Positions 47,048 through 58,611 of a DNA stretch of 64,000 nt are shown here, one piece after another. The position numbers and the translations under genes were made by a program. Source of the DNA: Gimesia fumaroli (GTDB taxonomy: Bacteria; Planctomycetota; Planctomycetia; Planctomycetales; Planctomycetaceae); contig NZ_CP037452.1 of NCBI RefSeq assembly GCF_007754425.1, positions 4,749,164 through 4,813,163 on the forward strand, written 5' to 3'. Numbering within the stretch: position 1 is the first letter of the stretch; every line of letters starts with the position of its first letter. A model generated the notes under the pieces. That model was given only the letters and a program-made list of their open reading frames with translations. It searched no databases and was not told where the DNA came from.

Positions 47048-47446
47048 TTACTCCGAAACCAGATTCAACAGGTCACCAATCGATTTGTGCTTTTCAATGG
47101 CATGCCGTAACGGTTGATCCGTCAGGACTTCGTAGTGATTCCGACGGCCTATTTTCTCTCGTTTAACGAATCCTTCTTCTTCCAGATCCTGGATGATCCG
47201 CTGGACGGCGCGCTCTGTTATGCCGACTTTTAAAGCGACTTCCCGCAACACAATCGAGGGTTCGCGATGCAACACGATCAGAACGTGTGCATGATTGGTC
47301 AGGAAGGTCCAACGGTTTCCGGAATCCGTCGCAGGACTCACTGCTGTTCCTGATTTCGCGTCGCGCATCGCGTCTTTCCCTTGCTGTTTTCCGTCTCTGA
47401 CTCTGCCGGAACCACTCCCGCGTTTATTTTTTGACGATTTTTTCAT
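47048..47446 (-). CDS. Winged-helix transcriptional regulator, divergent from the dab operon
   Basis: A 132-residue regulator. After a basic, disordered N-terminus ([21 protein letters not shown]) the winged helix-turn-helix is [57 protein letters not shown], in the style of MarR/ArsR-type domains. ATG 47446 has GGGTGAT upstream; codons further upstream to 47590 run through its promoter region. A perfect inverted repeat (47468-47489) lies just upstream and could be its own operator. Divergent from dabB, so it is the likely regulator of that operon (inference). Confidence 0.75.
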
Positions 47447-47467
47447 CGCAATATCACCCACTCCGAA

Positions 47468-47667: not shown

Positions 47668-47715
47668 TTGACGACATTTATTTCGCGTATCATTATACGC
47701 GAATATGAATACGCG
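47668..47715 (+). promoter_or_regulatory. dab operon promoter overlapped by a perfect operator palindrome
   Basis: TTGACG (47668-47673) and CATTAT (47691-47696) at 17-bp spacing form a promoter. Across the -10 lies a perfect 9-bp inverted repeat, TTCGCGTAT / ATACGCGAA with a CATT centre (47682-47703), and a third half-site AATACGCG follows at 47708-47715. A bound regulator would block the polymerase. The dabB 5' fragment starts about 45 bp downstream. Confidence 0.7.
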
Positions 47716-47759: not shown

Positions 47760-47894
47760 ATGTCTGGTGCAATTGGTTTGATCTTGATCCTTCCTGCTTG
47801 CCTTCTGCTGATATATGGGCTCATTCCTAGAAAAGCGGCGAACACGCGGGTCAATCAACTTTGTCAAATGACAACCTTAGAAGTGGTTTCATAA
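47760..47894 (+). pseudogene. dabB: DabB (NuoL-like) 5' fragment, cut by an IS5-type element
   Basis: ATG 47760, preceded by GAGGAG, opens MSGAIGLILILPACLLLIYG, then LIPRKAANTRVNQLCQMTTL: the first transmembrane helix expected at the start of a NuoL-type protein. Codon 40 (TTA, 47877-47879) is genuine; the insertion begins after it and the frame then runs five codons into the element to a stop at 47894. The other part of the gene resumes at 48807. Together the two give one 527-codon frame if the element and one copy of TA are removed. Confidence 0.85.
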
Positions 47895-48806
47895 CTTATT
47901 AAGTAAGGTGAACACGCACGCGAGTTGTGCGAATCCTAAAAACAAATGACTGTATCTTTCATACCGTACTACCAGGCGACGAAAGTTGAACAACCAACTG
48001 ATGGTGCGTTCGACTTTCCAACGGCGTTGATATCGCCGCAATGCACGCCCATCCTGCGTCGCTGGTTTTACACGGTTCTTGCGATGCGGACAGATCAGCT
48101 CTATCTTCCGTTCCGCCAATTGTGTGCGCAGGGGATCGCTGTCGGCCGCACGATCATAAATCAGGCGATCAGGGTCGCGTGGCAAAATGCGCTGGTCCAG
48201 CAGGGACTCAATCAACTTCACCTCTGCCGGCGAGGCACTGGTACGATCCAGAGCGAGAGGGAGTCCGTTCCCGTCGACCAGCAGCATAAGCTTGGTTCCC
48301 TTTCCCCGTTTTGTCTTGCCGACATCGGCGCCCCTTTTTTTGCAGGGCAAAATGTGCCATCCCCGAACGCTTCCGACCAGACTACCAGCTTCCGGCGATC
48401 GAGGTGTTCGAGTAATCGCTGCCACGCTTCCAGGAACACACCGTCTTCGGTCCATTCCTTGAAACGACGCCAGCAGGTGCTGGGCGATGGTAAAAATGTT
48501 GGTAAATCTTTCCATCGGGCACCAGTCCTTAATACCCAAAGGATTCCTTCGAGGCACTCGCGGGCAGCCACTCTGGGCCGCCCTCCGGCTGCGTTTGCCG
48601 GTGGTTCTGGAAACAGATCTTTGATCAGAAGCCATTGCTCGTCCGAGAGTTGTGGTTTTGGTTCCGTCCTGGACCCGGTTATGTTGCGACCTGTGGCAGG
48701 TCGGGACACGCGGGTCATGGTCATAATGAGACCTCCTTTCTGGGGAGGTACTCTTACAAATACTATACCAAACTGTTCACGTAATTTTGGGTTTTGAAAC
48801 TACCTC
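47880..48806 (-). mobile_element. IS5-type insertion sequence (IS427-like), inserted in dabB
   Basis: 927 bp. The ends are imperfect 16-bp inverted repeats, GAAGTGGTTTCATAAC on the left against GAGGTAGTTTCAAAAC (right, complement), 13 of 16 matching. The dinucleotide TA occurs on both sides (47878-47879 and 48807-48808), fitting the 2-bp duplication of the IS427 group. The transposase is read on the minus strand, opposite to dabB. Confidence 0.88.
47889..48724 (-). CDS. IS5-family transposase produced by programmed -1 frameshift
   Basis: Two overlapping minus-strand frames: the first (48724 to 48218) begins MTMTRVSRPATGRN after GGAGG and carries the DUF4096-like N-terminal domain; the second (ending 47889) carries the DDE catalytic domain. 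An A7 slippery tract (48335-48341 on the plus strand as T7) in GCAAAAAAAGG lies in the overlap, where a -1 shift joins FCPAKK to RGADVGKTKRGKGTKL. Acidic residues: FGDGTFCP (first D), LIYDRAADSD (second), KVERTISWLFNFRRL (E). Length of the fused product is about 277 residues. Appears intact and active. Confidence 0.88.
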
Positions 48807-50272
48807 TAGTCACAGGCTTTCAATGCCTGCTCGCGACTCTCTTTGTTCTGCTCTACTCCTCACAGGTATTTTTTGACGCTCGTCTGGTTAATCTACCCGA
48901 AACCGTCAAACTCGCCAATCTCAACCTCGTGATGTTTGACGGTGCCTCTTGCTTGATGTACTCACTGGTCAGCTTTGTTGGCTGGATCATCAGCCGTTTT
49001 TCGATCCGATACCTGGATGGTGAACCCGAACAAGGCAACTATTTCCGCTGGACCGGTTTTACGGTGGGAGCAGTCTCCCTGATGGTGATTTCGGGAAATT
49101 TGCTGCTGTTCATCCTTGCCTGGGCGATCTCCAGTTTAGGGCTTCATCAACTGCTTCTATTTTACAGAAATCGACCCGCGGCTCAACGGGCTGCATGGAC
49201 GAAATTCACTGTGAGTCGGATTGGTGATATTGCCTTGATCGGTGCTACGATCCTGATTTACCAGGAATTTCAGACTCTCAATTTTTCCGAGATCTTCGCA
49301 GCCATCAAGTACCAGTCCGGATTCGATTCTCCCCGGATCATGTGGGCGGTCTCGCTACTGGTACTCGGCGCCATCTCCAAATCCGCTCAATTCCCCTTCC
49401 ATACCTGGTTGCCACAAACACTGGATACACCAACTCCCGTCTCGGCTTTGATGCATGCGGGAATCGTGAATGCGGGAGGCTTTCTCATGATCCGTACCAG
49501 CCCCCTGCTTTTCTTAAATCCCACCGCCATGGCTGGTCTGGCTGTGGTGGGAACAGTCACAACCTGTTTTGCCGCCACCGTGATGCTGACGCAAACCAGC
49601 ATCAAGAAGAATCTGGCCTATTCCACCATTGCACAGATGGGCTTCATGATGCTGCAATGTGGCCTGGGTGCTTTTTCCGCTGCCATGCTGCATATTCTGG
49701 CTCATTCGCTCTACAAAGCGCATGCGTTTCTGAATAGTGGTAGCGTGCTCGATCAAACCAAGGCGTCAGGTTGGAATCAGGCAAACCAACACCAGGAGAA
49801 GGTCTCCTCAAGCAAACTCTTGATAACCGGTGCCTGTATTGTCCTGGTTTACTGCGCGAGCCTGGCGCTCTTCGGTATCAACCCGCTCACAAAACCAGGT
49901 GGCATTCTACTTGGGTTTATTTTATGCCTCGCCCTGCTGGGTTGGATGAGACAGGCTTTACAATCGAACAATCGTTCCCTGCTGCTTCGAACCGCTGGCA
50001 TCTCCCTGGTACTCTGCCTGGCCTACAGTCTCAGTTTCGTCGCGATCGACAAAATTGTGGGACTGAACCAGAGCACTTCTAATACTTCTGATCTAGCCTG
50101 GGCCGCGGCTACCCTGATTGTGCTTGGATTCATCAGCCTGGCTCTGCTACATCGAAAGGTCTCACAACCTCATCAACCCGCATGGATCAACAGACTCTAT
50201 ATCCATGCCCTCAACGGGTTCTATCTTGAGGCGTTGCTCAGGCAACGTTTCGGAAATCTGAACCGTGAATAA
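48794..50272 (+). pseudogene. dabB: DabB (NuoL-like) 3' fragment, may be expressed without helix 1
   Basis: Membrane partner of DabA in the DAC inorganic-carbon (DIC) transporter; DabB resembles the proton-pumping NuoL/MrpA subunit. The real dabB sequence resumes at 48807 with LVTGFQCLLATLFVLL and runs through about 13 hydrophobic segments with NuoL core motifs, KSAQFPFHTWLPQTLDTPTPVSALMHAG and TSIKKNLAYSTIAQMGFM. A TTG at 48794 inside the IS right end could start a 492-residue protein that lacks the first helix. Whether that is made or functional is unknown. Stop at 50272 overlaps the GTG of dabA's frame. Confidence 0.85.
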
Positions 50273-50333
50273 ACTAGTTCCATCTCTCATTGTTTCTTGC
50301 CTTAAAAACAAATTTATTAGAAAGAGTGACACA

Positions 50334-52934
50334 ATGTCAGAAATGAAATCCGAATCATCCTACTTTCCTTTACCCAATCTCATCAACAGGACTTCCTCCA
50401 GACAACGATATCTGATCGAACAGATTTCCGAAGCTCTCAAGGTCGTTTCTCAGGTAGTTTCCCCTGTTTCGCCTTTGAAAGATTATGTGGCAATCAATCC
50501 CTATCACGGGATTTCCGAACGGTCTTTCTTAAACGCACGAAATTATTTACGAATCTTTTCAGACTGCGAAACCCTGATGCCCCTGAAATACTATGCTGAA
50601 GAATTCCGTTCGGGACACTTTGGGATTGAACAGATCCAGACTGCTGTCGAAGAATTAGAGAGCACCAAGATTCGCACGCATCAAATTCCCTCTGCAGAAA
50701 AAATCGTTGAACTGTTACAAAGCCTGGACGAACAAGACCATTCTCCTGACGAGTTGAAACAGAAATACGACAGGCCCGTTCGCACTCTGTCTGAGATGCT
50801 GGATCAAAACTCTCAGAGAAACTGGACGGAAATGATCCGTGATGAGATCTCTAAGTATTGTGCAATGCATTATGACCAGGGCGAGGCAGTCTGGGGCAGC
50901 CCCTGGAAAGAGCTGACCTTGTACCAGTCCTGGCGTTCAGCGGCTGTCTATGATCGAAATCTGGAATTCCAGGGACTCACCGGCTTGTGCAGATATATCT
51001 CCCAGCTTCCGCATACACCTGAAGCCGCGATGATCAGTTCATTGAAAAGTTTGAACGTTCCACCAGCGCTGTGGGAAACCTACTTACTGTGTCAGGCCTT
51101 TTCAATTCCCGGCTGGAGCGCCTGGGTCAAAAATCAGTCTGAAGAATCGGGAATCGAAGATCCATTGTGTAATGACCTGGCGGGTCTATTGGCGATGCGT
51201 CTCGCATACGATGCCGCACTCTCAAAGGCGCGGGCATTCGAAGTGAACTGGGGTAACTATGCCAAAAACCGTCCCGTTTCATTTAAACTCCCCTCCGATA
51301 CACAAGACAACGAACTTTTACGATATACTCTGTTACGCGCTTCGGAAATCGCGTTCCGAGATCAGCTGCTGCAAGGACTCGCGGCTCAGACTGAGACTGC
51401 GATCAGAGACTCTGAATCCCCAACGCATCCCGTATCCGTCGAAACAGAGCGAAAATCAGCACAGATGGTTTTCTGCATCGATGTACGATCAGAGCGAATT
51501 CGACGGCAACTGGAATCGGTCTCTTCCCACATTGAAACATTCGGTTTTGCGGGATTCTTTGGCCTGCCGATCGAATTCGTGCGACTGGGGGACCAATCAG
51601 GAGACCACCAGGTCCCCGTCTTACTGAAACCGCAAATGAAAATCTACGAAGATCTCCATGCTGCAGAGCCTGATTTGAAGTCTCAACTTGTCAAGCAACG
51701 CAGCCTTTCCAGCTCAATGCGAAAACTCTGGAAAAACCTGCGGACTTCAGCCGTGGGCTGCTTCCCGTTTGTGGAAACGACCGGTTTACTCTATGGACTG
51801 AAACTCTGGCAGCGGTCCGTTGGTTCCACACCACAGCCTTCCAGCGCCGATCCTCAGGCAGCATTCAGTAAGAGTGATGATGCGCTTGAACCCAGCTTGA
51901 ATGATTTGAATCAACAGGGAATCACATTATCAGAGCTGACTGATTTAACTGAATCGATGTTAAAAAATCTGGGTTTGACGAAACACTTTGCTCGATTGGT
52001 GGTCTTCTGCGGTCATGGCAGCCAAACAGAAAACAATCCTCTCAAAGCCGGACTGGACTGCGGCGCCTGTGGGGGGCACTCTGGCGAACCGAATGCGCGA
52101 ATCGCAGCGAAAATCCTGAATCAGGCTGCGGTACGGCGTGCTCTTGAACACCGGGGAATCACAATCCCCTCTGACACCTGCTTTATCGCAGGCTTACACA
52201 ACACTACGACAGACAGCATCGATTATTTCGAATGCGATCAAGTTCCAGAGACACACCACCAGGACTTGAAAACGCTCATCGAAATATCTCAGCTTGCTTC
52301 TGAGAATTCCCGAGTCGAGCGAATGCCCGAGATAAATGCGCCCACAATGACCGATCTGATGCGACGCGCCGCTGACTGGTCTGAAGTACGTCCCGAGTGG
52401 GGACTGGCAGGCAACGCCGCTTTTGTGATCGCCCCCCGAGAGTATACACGGGAGATCAACCTGGATGCGCGAACGTTCCTGCACAGCTATGATCACAAAA
52501 ATGATCCGGAGGGGATCGTTCTGGAGAATATCATGACGGCTCCGATGATCGTTGCCCACTGGATCAATATGCAATATTACGCATCTACCGTCGACAATCC
52601 TCATTTCGGCAGCGGAAACAAGACGTTGCATAATGTTGTCGGAGGTTTCGGAATCCTATCCGGGAATGGCGGGGACCTGATGACGGGCCTCCCCTGGCAG
52701 TCGCTGAATACAGGTGCGAACTTTCAACACAAACCACTGCGTTTACAAGTCCTGATCGCCGCGCCGCGAAATGTCATCGACAAGATTATTGCGAAACATC
52801 AAGACATCTCGAATCTATTCACCGGCGGCTGGTTGCACCTGATTTCGCTGGATGAACAACAACAGTTTCAGTACTCCACTGATGGGAACTGGAACAAGAT
52901 TGAACTGACACAACCATGTGACAGTCGCCTGTAA
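50334..52934 (+). CDS. dabA: DabA (DUF2309/UPF0753), DIC transporter subunit
   Basis: Cytoplasmic-facing zinc protein of the DAB inorganic-carbon accumulation complex, thought to convert CO2 to bicarbonate unidirectionally, with energy from DabB. About 866 residues from ATG 50334. The proposed zinc/active-site set known in Halothiobacillus DabA is present: Cys and Asp in MVFCIDVRSERIRRQLE, and His and Cys 15 apart in FCGHGSQTENNPLKAGLDCGACGG. The GTG at 50265, overlapping the dabB stop, would add 23 residues (a coupled start); the ATG form is preferred but not certain. Intact, despite the broken dabB before it. Confidence 0.88.
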   Translation: MSEMKSESSYFPLPNLINRTSSRQRYLIEQISEALKVVSQVVSPVSPLKDYVAINPYHGISERSFLNARNYLRIFSDCETLMPLKYYAEEFRSGHFGIEQIQTAVEELESTKIRTHQIPSAEKIVELLQSLDEQDHSPDELKQKYDRPVRTLSEMLDQNSQRNWTEMIRDEISKYCAMHYDQGEAVWGSPWKELTLYQSWRSAAVYDRNLEFQGLTGLCRYISQLPHTPEAAMISSLKSLNVPPALWETYLLCQAFSIPGWSAWVKNQSEESGIEDPLCNDLAGLLAMRLAYDAALSKARAFEVNWGNYAKNRPVSFKLPSDTQDNELLRYTLLRASEIAFRDQLLQGLAAQTETAIRDSESPTHPVSVETERKSAQMVFCIDVRSERIRRQLESVSSHIETFGFAGFFGLPIEFVRLGDQSGDHQVPVLLKPQMKIYEDLHAAEPDLKSQLVKQRSLSSSMRKLWKNLRTSAVGCFPFVETTGLLYGLKLWQRSVGSTPQPSSADPQAAFSKSDDALEPSLNDLNQQGITLSELTDLTESMLKNLGLTKHFARLVVFCGHGSQTENNPLKAGLDCGACGGHSGEPNARIAAKILNQAAVRRALEHRGITIPSDTCFIAGLHNTTTDSIDYFECDQVPETHHQDLKTLIEISQLASENSRVERMPEINAPTMTDLMRRAADWSEVRPEWGLAGNAAFVIAPREYTREINLDARTFLHSYDHKNDPEGIVLENIMTAPMIVAHWINMQYYASTVDNPHFGSGNKTLHNVVGGFGILSGNGGDLMTGLPWQSLNTGANFQHKPLRLQVLIAAPRNVIDKIIAKHQDISNLFTGGWLHLISLDEQQQFQYSTDGNWNKIELTQPCDSRL

Positions 52935-52976: not shown

Positions 52977-53300
52977 ATGAAGATTACAATTATCGATCAA
53001 AGTCAATTATTAGGCCAACAGTTGATCCAACTCTGTAAGCGCTATTTGCATGATGTTCTAGCGCCCCATTTCCAGCCCATGATGCTTTCCATGGAACTGA
53101 ATGTCAAAGCCCTGAAAGACCCCCAGGGAGAGTTAAAAAAAGTATATCGAGTTCAGATCGATCATGGCGATGGTCAAATTGTCTTTCACCAGAAAGGGGA
53201 GAACATTGACATGTGCCTCGCCAAGATTGCCGAGACCGCTCAACGAGAGATCTCCCGAGAGAGAGCACGTTCTATTGCACGAGTGAAGTGCTTATACTAA
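52977..53300 (+). CDS. HPF/RaiA-like ribosome-associated protein, copy 1
   Basis: A 107-residue protein with a predicted S30AE (HPF/RaiA) fold: MKITIIDQSQLLGQQLIQLCKRYLHDVL (helix 1 region), MMLSMELNVKALKDPQGE (beta strand and loop), KKVYRVQIDHGDGQIVFHQKGENIDMCLAKIAETAQREISRERAR (beta strands and helix 2). HPF proteins dimerise or silence ribosomes in stationary phase; this one has a changed core and may have another partner. AGGAGA precedes the ATG, 42 bp after dabA, so it is in the dab operon. It is paralogous to the next gene. Confidence 0.7.
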   Translation: MKITIIDQSQLLGQQLIQLCKRYLHDVLAPHFQPMMLSMELNVKALKDPQGELKKVYRVQIDHGDGQIVFHQKGENIDMCLAKIAETAQREISRERARSIARVKCLY

Positions 53301-53454: not shown

Positions 53455-53793
53455 ATGACAATCACTTTTACTGATCGAAATCAGTTATTAACTCATCAAT
53501 TAAAACAACTTTGCCAGAGACGCCTTGACTATGCACTGTCAAGATTTCAGTCGATGATCACATCCATCGAGTTCAGCGTCAGCGACTTGAATGGCCCTCG
53601 AGGAGGCATCGACAAAGCATGTCGCGTCAGAATTATTCACAGAAACGGTCATCTTATCGTCAATCAGAAACACGAAGACCTGTCTGTGTGCATCTCCAAA
53701 ATTGCAGAAAAAGCCGCTCGCACCCTTTCCCGCTACAGGTCGCGTTCGCAGAAATTCAACCGCACGCGGCATACCGATTTGATAGAAACATAA
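53455..53793 (+). CDS. HPF/RaiA-like ribosome-associated protein, copy 2
   Basis: A 112-residue paralogue of the preceding gene: MTITFTDRNQLLTHQLKQLCQRRLDYALSRFQSMITSIEFSVSDLNGPRGG, then RIIHRNGHLIVNQKHEDLSVCISKIAEKAARTLSRYRSR. The shared layout (start, basic helix, KIAE..A) implies tandem duplication. A strong AAGGAGG ribosome binding site precedes the ATG. The C-terminus is basic. It is the last gene of the operon before a large hairpin. Confidence 0.7.
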   Translation: MTITFTDRNQLLTHQLKQLCQRRLDYALSRFQSMITSIEFSVSDLNGPRGGIDKACRVRIIHRNGHLIVNQKHEDLSVCISKIAEKAARTLSRYRSRSQKFNRTRHTDLIET

Positions 53794-53843
53794 GAAACCA
53801 GGGGCAGGTTATTCGTACTCAGAAATCCTGCCCCGCCTGTTTC
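53794..53843 (+). terminator. Hairpin downstream of the dab operon
   Basis: GGGGCAGG (53801-53808) pairs with CCTGCCCC (53827-53834) around an 18-base loop, and outer GAAAC/GTTTC arms extend it. No clear T-run follows, so it may be a terminator or an mRNA-end hairpin. Confidence 0.45.
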
Positions 53844-53935
53844 TCCTGATTAATCACATACTTCTTTACTGTTGCCGAAATTAAATATTTGTCCCCGTTT
53901 CTGATCTGCTTTGAATATCTATGAAACAAAACAAA

Positions 53936-55609
53936 TTACCAGAACATCAGGCGAAAATGATTCTGCACTTCTTCCGGGCCTAAGGCACGCTTGTAAAGCG
54001 CGAATTCGTCAATTCCACCTACGAACTGCCTGAGCGTATTCACGAGCCTGAGCTGGCCGAGGTATAGCTTGTAGCCAGAGGAATCACTTTCCACGTTATG
54101 AAAAACGCGGCGTGCAATCGATCCATTAAGATACAGTTCCAGCATATTATGTTTCTTGACGACAACAACTTGCATCCATTGTCCCGGAACACAGTGTTCT
54201 CTTGAGATGAGATTCGTCCCGAACTTCCAATCAGGACTGGGGGGAAATCTTTGCAGAAAACGGATGTTGCCGATCTCATGTTTCATATTAGCAAGGTATT
54301 CTTTAGCCATGATCTCAATCACATTGAGATGTTGGATTCCAACGGCATCTGTTTCTTGAATGACAGACACACAAGTCATATGCGCTAATTTGTCTGCTCT
54401 GATCCAGAACTCAACCGAAAAGGGCCCCTCGTTCAATTCTGGAAAGGGATCTGCCGGCATAATCATACGCGGAGCTTCTGACAATCGAAATTGAGCATAT
54501 CCATCAGCAATTTGCAAACATTCGGGTTCATTGTGATTTCGGATGACGTCGGCTGTCCATTGCAGCCCCATTTCGTTTCGAACCTGGCCAAACTCTTCCG
54601 CCTCAAAACGCCAGTAAACCAGCGGTCGCGACTGTTTAACTGCGTCGATATACTCCTGCCTCACTGGTAATCCTAATGAGGGAGTTTCGACGCTGTTCGG
54701 AGCAAGAGTAGACGACTCCAACTTGTTTGGTATCGCCATTTTCTTTGGATCGCCTGATGACTCTTTTGGTTGTTTACTGACAATAGAAGTCCCCTCGTTT
54801 GCTGACAGCGGAGTTTCTGCCAGTTTATTTGTCAGCGGTTTCGCTTCTCTAGGACCGTCTTTATCGATTTGAATTCCAATTTCGGTCCCTAAATCAACAA
54901 CAGCAGCCTCAGGCGCATTGATCACAAAATCAATTGCTGACTCGGGGATTAACACAGTTGCTCGTCCCGAATGCAATGTGGCAGCCGACTTTGAGATCAT
55001 TTCGATCTCCGCCGGACCAACAATCGTAATCAATGCACCACTGAAGAATTCGAGTTGGATTCGCCCATGAGGAATTTTCAGCGTCCCCGCTTTAAAGCAG
55101 CGTCCGACTTTAAACTCATCAGAGTCGATGCCATCAACGTAAGTTAAAATGGCGATATCCGGAGTCTGTTTCATTTCAGGGAGAGGGCAGACATTGAATG
55201 TCTCTTCCCGATCTGGCACTTTTGTTTGCGTCCTTGATGGTTGTGCAAGGTTCTTCCCACTGGAAACGTTACCAGATTGCCAGGGCAGTAATAAAAAGGA
55301 AAAGACGAGCAACAAGCAGACCACACAGAGAACCATAACAATGATCGAGTTACGTCTTGTCGTGTTCTGTAGAGTTTTCAGTTGTATGATCGTTGAGGAA
55401 CTCAAACTCGAATCCGGAGCAGAGCATTCTTCATAGAAAGCAGATTCGAGATCCACTAATTGAATATATCGATTCCGAAACGCGATATCGGATTGAATAC
55501 GCTGCTCAATCGTTCTCAGTTCGTCTTCTGATATCCGACCATCAAGTAAACGTCGAATCAGGTCCACGTCACTTTCAGAATTTTGCCCCTCAGGGAATGG
55601 TAGCGACAT
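53936..55609 (-). CDS. FecR-domain anti-sigma-like protein with LamG/concanavalin-like domain
   Basis: A 557-residue membrane protein. The N-terminal cytoplasmic part is the anti-sigma-like segment SESDVDLIRRLLDGRISEDELRTIEQRI, then a single transmembrane helix (SIIVMVLCVVCLLLVFSFLLLPW), a FecR-type beta domain (LTYVDGIDSDEFKVGRCFKAG, LEFFSGALITIVGPAEIEM), a Pro/Ser linker, and a LamG-type jelly roll from about residue 330 (SRPLVYWRFEAEEFG, GPFSVEFWIRADKLA, WMQVVVVKKHNMLELYLNGS, VGGIDEFALYKRAL). It lies 13 bp after the ECF sigma gene, so it probably holds that sigma factor and senses an outside ligand. Confidence 0.85.
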   Translation of the reverse strand: MSLPFPEGQNSESDVDLIRRLLDGRISEDELRTIEQRIQSDIAFRNRYIQLVDLESAFYEECSAPDSSLSSSTIIQLKTLQNTTRRNSIIVMVLCVVCLLLVFSFLLLPWQSGNVSSGKNLAQPSRTQTKVPDREETFNVCPLPEMKQTPDIAILTYVDGIDSDEFKVGRCFKAGTLKIPHGRIQLEFFSGALITIVGPAEIEMISKSAATLHSGRATVLIPESAIDFVINAPEAAVVDLGTEIGIQIDKDGPREAKPLTNKLAETPLSANEGTSIVSKQPKESSGDPKKMAIPNKLESSTLAPNSVETPSLGLPVRQEYIDAVKQSRPLVYWRFEAEEFGQVRNEMGLQWTADVIRNHNEPECLQIADGYAQFRLSEAPRMIMPADPFPELNEGPFSVEFWIRADKLAHMTCVSVIQETDAVGIQHLNVIEIMAKEYLANMKHEIGNIRFLQRFPPSPDWKFGTNLISREHCVPGQWMQVVVVKKHNMLELYLNGSIARRVFHNVESDSSGYKLYLGQLRLVNTLRQFVGGIDEFALYKRALGPEEVQNHFRLMFW

Positions 55610-55622
55610 CGAATAAAGTCCT

Positions 55623-56177
55623 TTATATCCTGTCCAAAGCAGCAACGCGGCGTTCGACGCACTTTGTAATTAATTTGCGAACCCGGTCTAATCGTCGATA
55701 GAGCGCTTTGACAGTCCGTCCTTGCTCTTCAGCAAGTGTCTTGATGGTTGATGAATCTGAATATCTGCGTTCCAACATGTTCCGATCTTCCCTGGTAAGT
55801 TCGGAGAGGCATAGTTTCAGTGCAGAACGTTGTTGGCCCAAATATGACTCTTGCTCTTTTCGTGACTCTGCCAGCAGAGACATGATTTCTTCATTAAACA
55901 TCAGCCTGCTGCGTGCACATTCCTTGCGAAAATTAAGTGCTTCAAAATAGGCGAAGCGGGTTGCCCAAGGCAGGAAGTCTCTGTCCTGGTCGAATTCCTC
56001 AAATTTTTCCCACATCACAAGTGCCGTTCGCTGTAATACTTCTTCTGCATCATCCCGGCGCGGGATGAGCATCATAATGTATCGCAACAGCTCACGATCA
56101 TAGGTGACCATAAACCTGGCAAACAGATTCCCGGAAAGATTCATCGAGTCACATTGATTAAGGACTTTTTGGCGCAA
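55623..56177 (-). CDS. ECF sigma factor, planctomycete/verrucomicrobium subgroup
   Basis: A 184-residue sigma-70 ECF factor of the TIGR02989 type. Region 2: FMVTYDRELLRYIMMLIPRRDDAEEVLQRTALVMWEKFEEFDQ, with WATRFAYFEALNFRK; region 4: LCLSELTREDRNMLERRYSDSSTIKTLAEEQGRTVKALYRRLDRVRKLITKCV. Start TTG 56177 has AAGG eight bases upstream; ATG 56144 (MNLSGNLFARF) is the other option. It is the first gene of a two-gene unit with the FecR/LamG protein and probably controls it and nearby pseudopilin-type genes (inference). Confidence 0.88.
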   Translation of the reverse strand: MRQKVLNQCDSMNLSGNLFARFMVTYDRELLRYIMMLIPRRDDAEEVLQRTALVMWEKFEEFDQDRDFLPWATRFAYFEALNFRKECARSRLMFNEEIMSLLAESRKEQESYLGQQRSALKLCLSELTREDRNMLERRYSDSSTIKTLAEEQGRTVKALYRRLDRVRKLITKCVERRVAALDRI

Positions 56178-56484
56178 TGATTCGACCTTATTGACATGTT
56201 CTCATCTATATAGACTAACTCTCCAGAGCGAGGTCAAATTCCCCCCCGCAATCTCTTTCTTTTTCGTGTATTAAAAAATTTACTGACTAATTTTAACAAT
56301 TTGATCCTATTTTCATAAAAAACAAGGGGAATTCATCGCTGCAACGGAGAATTACAGCAGTGAGGAAGATCCATTCATACTCCCCGTTTGGGCTTCCTTC
56401 CATTTATCCTTTCCTTAAACAACGGGATTTCTAAATTACATTTCTCTGGGGTGGATTCTTATCTTTGGGCTGGGATATATAATT
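56178..56484. other. Divergent promoter region of the ECF sigma and DUF1559 genes
   Basis: About 300 bp between divergent start codons, AT-rich in the middle. No operator or repeat stands out by eye. Confidence 0.35.
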
Positions 56485-57504
56485 ATGAGAAAACGTTCGC
56501 AAGGTTTTACACTCATTGAATTGCTGGTCGTCATTGCCATCATCGCCATTTTGATTGCCCTGCTGTTACCTGCCGTCCAGCAGGCACGGGAAGCGGCTCG
56601 CAGATCTCAGTGTAAGAACAACCTGAAACAACTTGGTCTCGGTTTGCACAACTACTATGAAACGTTTTCCCAATTTCCGCCGGGAGGCGTTCACTCCAGT
56701 GTGCCTCGTAACGGTGGAAGTGGTCATAGTTTTGGCCCCAGTTTTTATGGCTTGCTTTTACCATACATGGATCTTGCGACGATGTATAACGCAATGGTAT
56801 GGGAAGGGGAGTCACCCGGATATGTCAATGAAGGCGCTGGGAGCGCGGGTGATGCGAACCGCGTAATTGTCAATGAAGCAGGTCAAATTCCGGCATTCAC
56901 CTGCCCTTCATCAACGCTTGACGTTCGAAATGGATCATTCGCTCCCTTCGCGCATTATGCCGGTATCACGGGAGCCGCTGACCCGACCTCATTCACAGAA
57001 AACCGCATCTTCGACGATGGCAGCCTGGGGCTGATTTCAGGTGGGGGGATGCTGGTCCCCAATAAAGGCGTCCGTCTGCGCGACTGTACCGATGGGTCCA
57101 GCAATACGATCATGATTGGTGAGGCTAATGGAAAACTGGAACGACTGACTGCCGGAACCTATTCCAAGCTGGCGGCCACGGGAACAACGCATGGCTGGCT
57201 GATGGGACTTCGCGTGACAGGTACCCCGCCCAATCTTCAGCCCGTCTCCGCGAATTCAGATCAACGTTGCTTTAACCTGACAACCGTCAGATACAGCCCC
57301 AACCAGGAGCCCTTTGCCAATCAACTCTTCCCCGGAATGGGCAGTAATGTCGGTGCCAATAATCCACTGATGTCATTCCATGTGGGAGGTGTCCAGATTT
57401 TGAAAGGAGACGGATCTGTTCGCTTTCTGAGCGAAAACGTTCATCTTGAGACCCTGAAGCAATTGGCAACTCGCGATGATGGTCAGCCAGTAGGAGAGTA
57501 TTAA
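56485..57504 (+). CDS. DUF1559 protein with type II pseudopilin N-terminus
   Basis: A 339-residue exported protein. It begins [20 protein letters not shown], the prepilin methylation site (G/FTLIE) and hydrophobic helix, then [37 protein letters not shown], diagnostic for DUF1559. The C-terminus has the H-X9-DG motif, [22 protein letters not shown], thought to be part of the planctomycete processing or assembly signal. Probably forms surface or periplasmic pilin-like structures. It is followed by a lipoprotein gene 98 bp on. Confidence 0.9.
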
Positions 57505-57602
57505 GACTGACCTGTTCCTTTGAGTCCCGTGTCTAGCAACATGGTTGAATTTTGTCTCGATCATAATTTGAATCTGAATCCCTGTTACAAAGGAAGTTTC
57601 CC

Positions 57603-58070
57603 ATGCGCGCGCCACGTATTGTTACTTCACTGCTCATTGTTCTATTGGGGCTGAGCACGACAGCATGCTCAAAAACAACAGACTACGGCCCGATGGGGAG
57701 TGTCACCGGTAAGCTGACGATCGATGGAAAAGCGATTGACCAGGGAACGCAGTTACTCTTCATGAAGATGGATGCCGGCTATGCTGCCTTTGGTGAAACG
57801 GATGCAGAAGGAAATTACTCGATTACCTGGGCCCGCGATGGGGAACGTAAATCCGAAGTCCCGTTGGGCAGTTATAAAGTCCTGATTCAACCACCCCGAG
57901 TTGGCAAAGATACGGAAGAGATGTCCGCAGAAGAGATGCTCGAAGGCGGGGACGTGGCCCCTGCCAAACCGAAATTCCCTGCGAAGTATCAACAACACGC
58001 CACCAGCGGCCTGGAATTTACGGTCAAAGAGGGCGAAAACAAAATTAACATTGATTTGAAGTCGAAGTAA
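57603..58070 (+). CDS. Lipoprotein with carboxypeptidase-regulatory-like domain
   Basis: A 155-residue lipoprotein (MRAPRIVTSLLIVLLGLSTTAC, lipobox TTAC). The mature protein is a beta-sandwich: GSVTGKLTIDGKAIDQGTQLLFM and AEGNYSITWARDGERKSEVPLGSYKVLIQPPR, as in the small 'carboxypeptidase regulatory-like' proteins that sit beside DUF1559 genes in planctomycetes. AAGGAAG precedes the ATG. Probably co-expressed with the DUF1559 gene upstream. Confidence 0.75.
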   Translation: MRAPRIVTSLLIVLLGLSTTACSKTTDYGPMGSVTGKLTIDGKAIDQGTQLLFMKMDAGYAAFGETDAEGNYSITWARDGERKSEVPLGSYKVLIQPPRVGKDTEEMSAEEMLEGGDVAPAKPKFPAKYQQHATSGLEFTVKEGENKINIDLKSK

Positions 58071-58104
58071 ATTCGATTCTCAATTCACGATCGCATGGTT
58101 TGCG

Positions 58105-58611
58105 TTATGACACATCGTGTTTCGAATGGGCTTTCTGATCGGGTACTTTGAAATCGGGATTCACAAGTTTAAAGTCGGCGTTCTCGGCTCCTCCTGATGG
58201 GACATCGAATTCCAGAGTCGTTTTCGAATTGTAGTTCTCCGGAATCGGGTTAGGGCCGCGGCGATCCTTTCCCGATGAATCATAGGTCGGCAGAATTTCC
58301 TCGAACGCATCGAGTGAAATCATCACATCATTCGGCCCGACAACTGCTCCTCTGTTGCCGGTCATGACAACGGCAAGTTCATAATGACCTGCTTCATCCG
58401 TTTTGCCGTACGACTCAGCCGCTCCTTTGGCCTCACTGTCATCGTCAGTCGTTCGAGGACGAAACAGTACCGTGGCGCCTGGCAGCGGTTCACCGTTCAT
58501 CGTCACCGTTCCCGATACCGACGCCAGCTTCACATTATCAGAACCGCATCCTGTGAATCCCACTAAAATAATCATCAGCGGAAACCATCGCGAAATCGAA
58601 AAGTCGCTCAT
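58105..58611 (-). CDS. Lipoprotein with carboxypeptidase-regulatory-like domain, second copy
   Basis: A 168-residue lipoprotein (MSDFSISRWFPLMIILVGFTGC, lipobox FTGC) with SVSGTVTMNGEPLPGATVLFRP and DEAGHYELAVVMTGNRGAVVGPNDVMISL. It has the same domain as the gene at 57603 and is 82 bp downstream of the second DUF1559 gene, giving a mirror-image DUF1559 plus lipoprotein pair. The ATG at 58611 is used. Confidence 0.75.
   Translation of the reverse strand: MSDFSISRWFPLMIILVGFTGCGSDNVKLASVSGTVTMNGEPLPGATVLFRPRTTDDDSEAKGAAESYGKTDEAGHYELAVVMTGNRGAVVGPNDVMISLDAFEEILPTYDSSGKDRRGPNPIPENYNSKTTLEFDVPSGGAENADFKLVNPDFKVPDQKAHSKHDVS

Follow-up and report, generated by a model that had tools for sequence, protein, structure and literature searches.

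An IS5-family element splits dabB in one of two dab loci of Gimesia fumaroli

The locus described here lies in a window of 64,000 nucleotides (the whole stretch of DNA that was analysed, to which positions refer unless a contig is named) taken from the 7.70-Mb, single-contig genome of Gimesia fumaroli. It begins with a divergent winged-helix regulator that is MarR/HTH_24-like (47048-47467, reverse strand; matches to Pfam HTH_24 and MarR), relatives of which, 67-93% identical, adjoin dabB in nine genus genomes having this dabB. Between the regulator and dabB, on the forward strand, there is a promoter-like TTGACG-17-CATTAT (47668-47696), the one match of a sigma-70 consensus scan in which 1.2 were expected by chance, and its possible -10 is overlaid by a perfect palindrome with 9-bp arms (47682-47703, TTCGCGTAT-CATT-ATACGCGAA). 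The region 47668-47703 would thus hold a possible dabB promoter and a candidate operator next to the divergently oriented MarR-like gene. A scan of the sequences preceding dabB in nine relatives gave no exact inverted repeat with an arm length of 7 or above. Downstream of dabB, dabA (50334-52934, forward strand) is intact, as an earlier note on this DNA had it: its open frame matches positions 3-747 of the 747 of PF10070 (E 1.5e-254), the zinc ligands Cys351, His524 and Cys539 and the Asp353-Arg355 dyad are identical to those of 9rd0_A when counted by eye, and the finger glutamate is likewise conserved in an alignment inspected by eye. Directly after dabA come two tandem similar small genes, of which the second (53455-53793) matches Ribosomal_S30AE, a hibernation-factor family, and the first (52977-53300) no family of Pfam or NCBIfam at E 0.001. 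Beyond them, from about 53801 to 58112, some 4.2 kb of host sequence have no equivalent at the syntenic position in G014, another genome of the genus.

The gene between regulator and dabA is broken in two. dabB starts at ATG 47760, and its codons 1-40 (47760-47879, forward strand), which encode helix 1 and the loop to helix 2 as judged from the frame, the hydropathy and the N-terminus of relatives, end with the TTA of codon 40. Directly after this codon lies an IS5-family element of 927 bp (47880-48806), which is flanked by one copy of TA on its left (47878-47879) and another on its right (48807-48808), the duplicated target site recognized by comparing the flanks of all copies of the element. 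Codons 41-527, with the Pfam domains Proton_antipo_N and Proton_antipo_M, follow on the forward strand at 48809-50272. When the element and one TA are taken out, the joined flanks form an open frame of 527 codons with a single terminal stop, and dabB has no other lesion. The earlier note, which was made from the letters alone, had described precisely this split after codon 40 and this restored frame, and its coordinates proved right to the base. In its present state, the frame that opens at ATG 47760 yields 44 residues, that is the 40 of DabB followed by EVVS, before a stop codon within the element, and the left 40-aa peptide alone has no Pfam or NCBIfam match at E 0.001. The right part can be read as a 492-aa frame from TTG 48794, in the end of the element.

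The corresponding empty site is present in G014, whose DabB is the closest to that of the host (94% identical). There dabB is uninterrupted, with 527 codons, and the joined host flanks align to it without a gap, with 37 identical bases around the junction. A dabB of this type is found in 9 of the 16 other genus genomes, and in all nine it has the N-terminus (526-529 aa). In a wider set, for which the best 80 of 388 loci in named genomes were kept (two of them, L065 and L066, from one record set, seemingly G006), three loci ran off the end and in the other 77 an upstream stop codon was reached; in each of these, the frame taken from its most distal start, all starts being putative, has room for 70 residues or more ahead of the Asp that matches residue 84. 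The idea that loss of the N-terminus is the normal state in relatives is therefore rejected, since nine of nine genus genomes keep it and 77 of 77 wider loci have room for it. The earlier note had named relatives with an intact dabB short of these 40 residues, or a discontinuous junction, as what would speak against it, and had proposed an alignment with a related uninterrupted gene; the N-termini are in place, the junction is continuous, and the alignment revealed an exact empty site. In the G006 draft there are two different dabB copies of this type (on C92 and C191, corresponding to L065 and L066), 79% and 84% identical to that of the host, each with its own regulator gene, which may reflect a duplication or a mixed bin.

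The element is present in the host genome in five copies that are 100% identical across exactly 927 bases, and TA is found on both sides of all five, by which its ends are independently fixed. Its terminal inverted repeats are imperfect, with 12 of the first 15 positions matching (counted by eye). The strand opposite to dabB carries two overlapping transposase frames, orfA (48218-48724; DUF4096, strong predicted ribosome-binding site) and orfB (47889-48635; DDE_Tnp_1). They match the N-terminal and the C-terminal part, respectively, of the IS5 family transposase NF033580 of NCBIfam, orfB scoring over the cut-off and orfA under it. At 48334-48341, on the same strand, frame analysis revealed a slippery A7G run where a -1 shift is predicted to fuse both frames into one 278-aa transposase. 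In the available part of PMC3281130, which deals with Paracoccus, the IS427 group of IS5 is described as having a 2-bp duplication together with two frames and a frameshift motif. The 2-bp target duplication is common to the host element and to most of the elements tabulated there, one of which has 4; in both cases the full DDE domain would be present only in a fusion of two overlapping frames, and the sizes are similar, 832-865 bp in that part of the source compared with 927 bp here. The element thus looks complete and is apparently active, as far as can be read from its sequence. Of the other four copies, one lies at residue 103 of a 114-residue frame and one at residue 98 of a 136-residue frame, while the open stretches at the remaining two do not exceed 57 and 76 residues, dabB being the longest open frame struck.

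Some match to the element occurs in 8 of the 17 genomes of the genus, the host's own included. Among the matches listed, full-length or near full-length copies with 94-96% identity are found, besides the host, in G009, G010 (which has 27 matches when all lengths are counted) and G015, and a piece at 87% identity in G012. G014 has 34 matches; each of those listed is weak and covers only part of the element (best E 5.3e-7, 64-78% identity), and the matches are therefore evidently to another element. It may be that the element entered the host lineage after the split from G014 and then spread recently, loss from G014 being the alternative. The insertion looks recent because of the empty site in G014, the five identical copies and the only weak element matches in that genome. 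Chance is not an issue as a source of the pattern, and the event called clean, recent and precise in the earlier note, a description with which the identical copies, the exact empty site and the lack of any other stop agree, is a real and precise one, apparently of recent date. A relaxation of selection after the insertion was considered and rejected, dN/dS to the outgroup G006 being nearly equal for dabB of the host (0.222) and of G014 (0.212). Such a lack of decay would follow from a recent insertion, but a gene of continued use to the cell would show it as well. In the first 40 codons, host and G014 show five nonsynonymous and two synonymous differences (a ratio of 0.82); these codons are loosely conserved between G014 and G006 as well (0.468), and the ratio is therefore put down to the nature of the helix or to small numbers, not to decay.

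A second, complete dab locus, with all frames open, is found at C1:4985585-4991620. It encodes a 1037-aa DabA, which matches positions 1-747 of the 747 of PF10070, a 463-aa protein with Proton_antipo_N and Proton_antipo_M and a 494-aa protein with Proton_antipo_M, and upstream of it lies a divergent gene for a beta-carbonic anhydrase of 223 aa (PF00484). The host genome has three PF00484 matches in all, this one included, and no match to the alpha-carbonic anhydrases (PF00194). The earlier note had envisaged loss of the DIC transporter as such; because of the second complete locus and the three carbonic-anhydrase-family matches, no more than one of two systems can have been lost. Its label 'carbon-concentrating' is doubtful, as no RuBisCO large chain (PF00016) was matched in the host genome, a result on which a RuBisCO-linked role for dab was rejected and which makes bicarbonate supply for carboxylations, by analogy with MpsAB, the likely role. 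Among the 17 genus genomes, the host's included, both dab loci are found in seven, only the DAB2-type in three (G014 among them), only the type with the large DabA in four and neither in three, counts that include the 74% complete G016 and the fragmented G006, counted from pieces. The DAB2-type locus was not found in 7 of the 17, one of which, G004, has the regulator relative at a contig end, so that its dabB may lie in the gap. This patchy presence suggests that each system is dispensable. Five genomes (G001, G005, G009, G010 and G013) carry an additional DabA-like frame, a short one of 590-593 aa (L165-L169, L171, L172), whose match to PF10070 is confined to both ends of the family model (about 2-282 and 570-747).

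Taken together, we consider it likely that one of the two dab systems has been inactivated by a recent IS transposition, tolerated through the second dab locus and the carbonic anhydrases. In this scenario, an element with IS427-group features would have transposed into the TA of dabB codons 40/41, parting helix 1 from the remaining helices of a NuoL-like proton-conducting subunit and putting into the operon some 900 bases unread by the dabB frame. No working DabB would then be made, leaving DabA without its membrane partner and the complex off, and the cell would tolerate this with bicarbonate supplied by the second dab locus and the carbonic anhydrases, so that the loss is probably buffered. 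The comparison with DAB2 of Halothiobacillus neapolitanus (DabA2-DabB2; PDB 9rd0), as described in the accessible part of PMC13144422, reveals the same two subunits, a conserved zinc site and finger glutamate in DabA and a NuoL-like DabB in both; the host differs in having its dabB split by an IS, in its apparent lack of a RuBisCO large chain and in its further dab locus. A DAB system has an uninterrupted NuoL-like DabB (PF00361) adjacent to DabA, and in the host PF00361 is present but its frame is split, whereas it is intact in G014. Judged from its genes, the host locus is best seen as a disrupted descendant of a DAB/DAC system and not as a working member.

The most serious rival to this reading holds that a DabB lacking helix 1, either the 492-aa fragment from TTG 48794 or the product of another internal start, is translated and functions together with DabA; the earlier note had offered the TTG fragment beside a recent loss of the transporter and a promoter supplied by the element. 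Structure alone is compatible with this. The AlphaFold model of the fragment (mean pLDDT 78.3, pTM 0.81; input alignment of 30 sequences, using 20 of the 80 named loci) has its first helix at residues 3-27. As modelled, the element struck just before helix 2, which starts within the fragment and would be whole, helix 1 only being absent. The core is intact, Proton_antipo_M spanning fragment residues 100-332, and D145 and K196 align by eye with Asp185 and Lys235 of DabB2. DabB2 is reported to conduct protons through TM4-11 and, with the finger of DabA, through TM12-13 (PMC13144422, in its accessible part), and helix 1 therefore need not be essential. In a Foldseek search with the model, the best 50 of 686 matches, among which 9rd0 is absent, were mostly complex I chains plus two Mrp antiporter entries, headed by chain L of E. 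coli complex I in a loose fit (TM-score by query about 0.6, rmsd about 9-13).

Translation of such a fragment is, however, poorly supported. Using what we take to be the anti-Shine-Dalgarno sequence, the predicted ribosome-binding site is almost absent at TTG 48794 (-0.9 kcal/mol, background mean -1.9), as against -8.4 kcal/mol at the native ATG 47760 (background 1% quantile -8.3), and the stronger internal starts of the joined frame (-3.1 at residues 89-90, -4.6 at 126 and -6.5 at 132-133) lie later and would cost more helices. The two candidate starts of dabA itself are weak too (-2.4 and -3.5), so the weak site at TTG 48794 is not proof of absent translation. The promoter that the element might supply is without support, since the consensus scan, which covers promoters of the sigma-70 type alone, gave no promoter-like site in the element, its single match lying upstream of dabB. 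Weak terminator-like sites in the element on the dabB strand are at about chance level (two found, 1.6 expected). Moreover, the relatives examined keep the DabB N-terminus. Among the three consequences offered in the earlier note, recent loss is thus favoured and the fragment weakly possible; residual function of a helix-1-less DabB is unlikely.

Another alternative, which we consider quite unlikely, is a polymorphic or reversible insertion, with an empty site and a working operon in some of the cells. The element looks complete and its five identical copies imply recent movement, but the single genome read for the species shows the filled site on its one contig, and precise excision is not known for elements of the IS5 family. 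Very unlikely, in our judgement, is that the element has given DabB a new N-terminus, TTG 48794 in its inverted repeat starting a helix-1-less DabB that still pairs with DabA, although, if true, this would mean that helix 1 is dispensable in a complex-I-like proton channel. Finally, 927-bp repeats are a classical source of misassembly, but that the element was placed at dabB by assembly error or contamination is scarcely credible for a single-contig genome in which both flanks come from one gene, the TA duplication is as at the four other copies and the flanks are syntenic with G014.

Inactivation of one dab system by the element thus looks like an early-stage natural knock-out, in a bacterium without detected RuBisCO large chain. 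MpsAB of Staphylococcus, a non-autotroph, belongs to the same two-protein family; in the available part of PMC8552792 it is reported to be interchangeable with carbonic anhydrase and to supply bicarbonate in non-autotrophs, the two rarely coexisting in a species, yet both being present in a number of Bacillaceae. Unlike MpsAB of Staphylococcus, the host dab stands in a genome that, like those Bacillaceae, has both kinds of gene, and that has another dab locus besides. Insertions in or near inorganic-carbon uptake genes are likewise made by ISAm1 of Acaryochloris, although in that case the target is the cyanobacterial sbtAB and the setting laboratory evolution, and the insertions were proposed to raise uptake because the regulator SbtB is lost (PMC8763236, in the part accessible). 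Among the titles and abstract openings returned by a literature search, no IS in a planctomycete dabB was found. Gene disruption by an IS is a commonplace kind of event, to which the second dab locus is the added fact. The host could be compared with G014, in which an intact DAB2-type locus is the only one found, to ask what role each system has in a heterotroph.

The two genomes also differ in how their divergence is distributed over the locus. Between host and G014, the windows that cover dabB codons 1-462 give dS values of 0.04-0.24 and the last window 0.52, and the values along dabA range over 0.20-0.97 (0.533 overall), a mosaic that extends over 47760-52934. In each of six windows over the first 376 residues of DabA, the host is closer to G006 than G014 is. 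The mosaic would be accounted for if the locus had recombined in the past, with the breakpoint near dabB codon 460 (about 50060).
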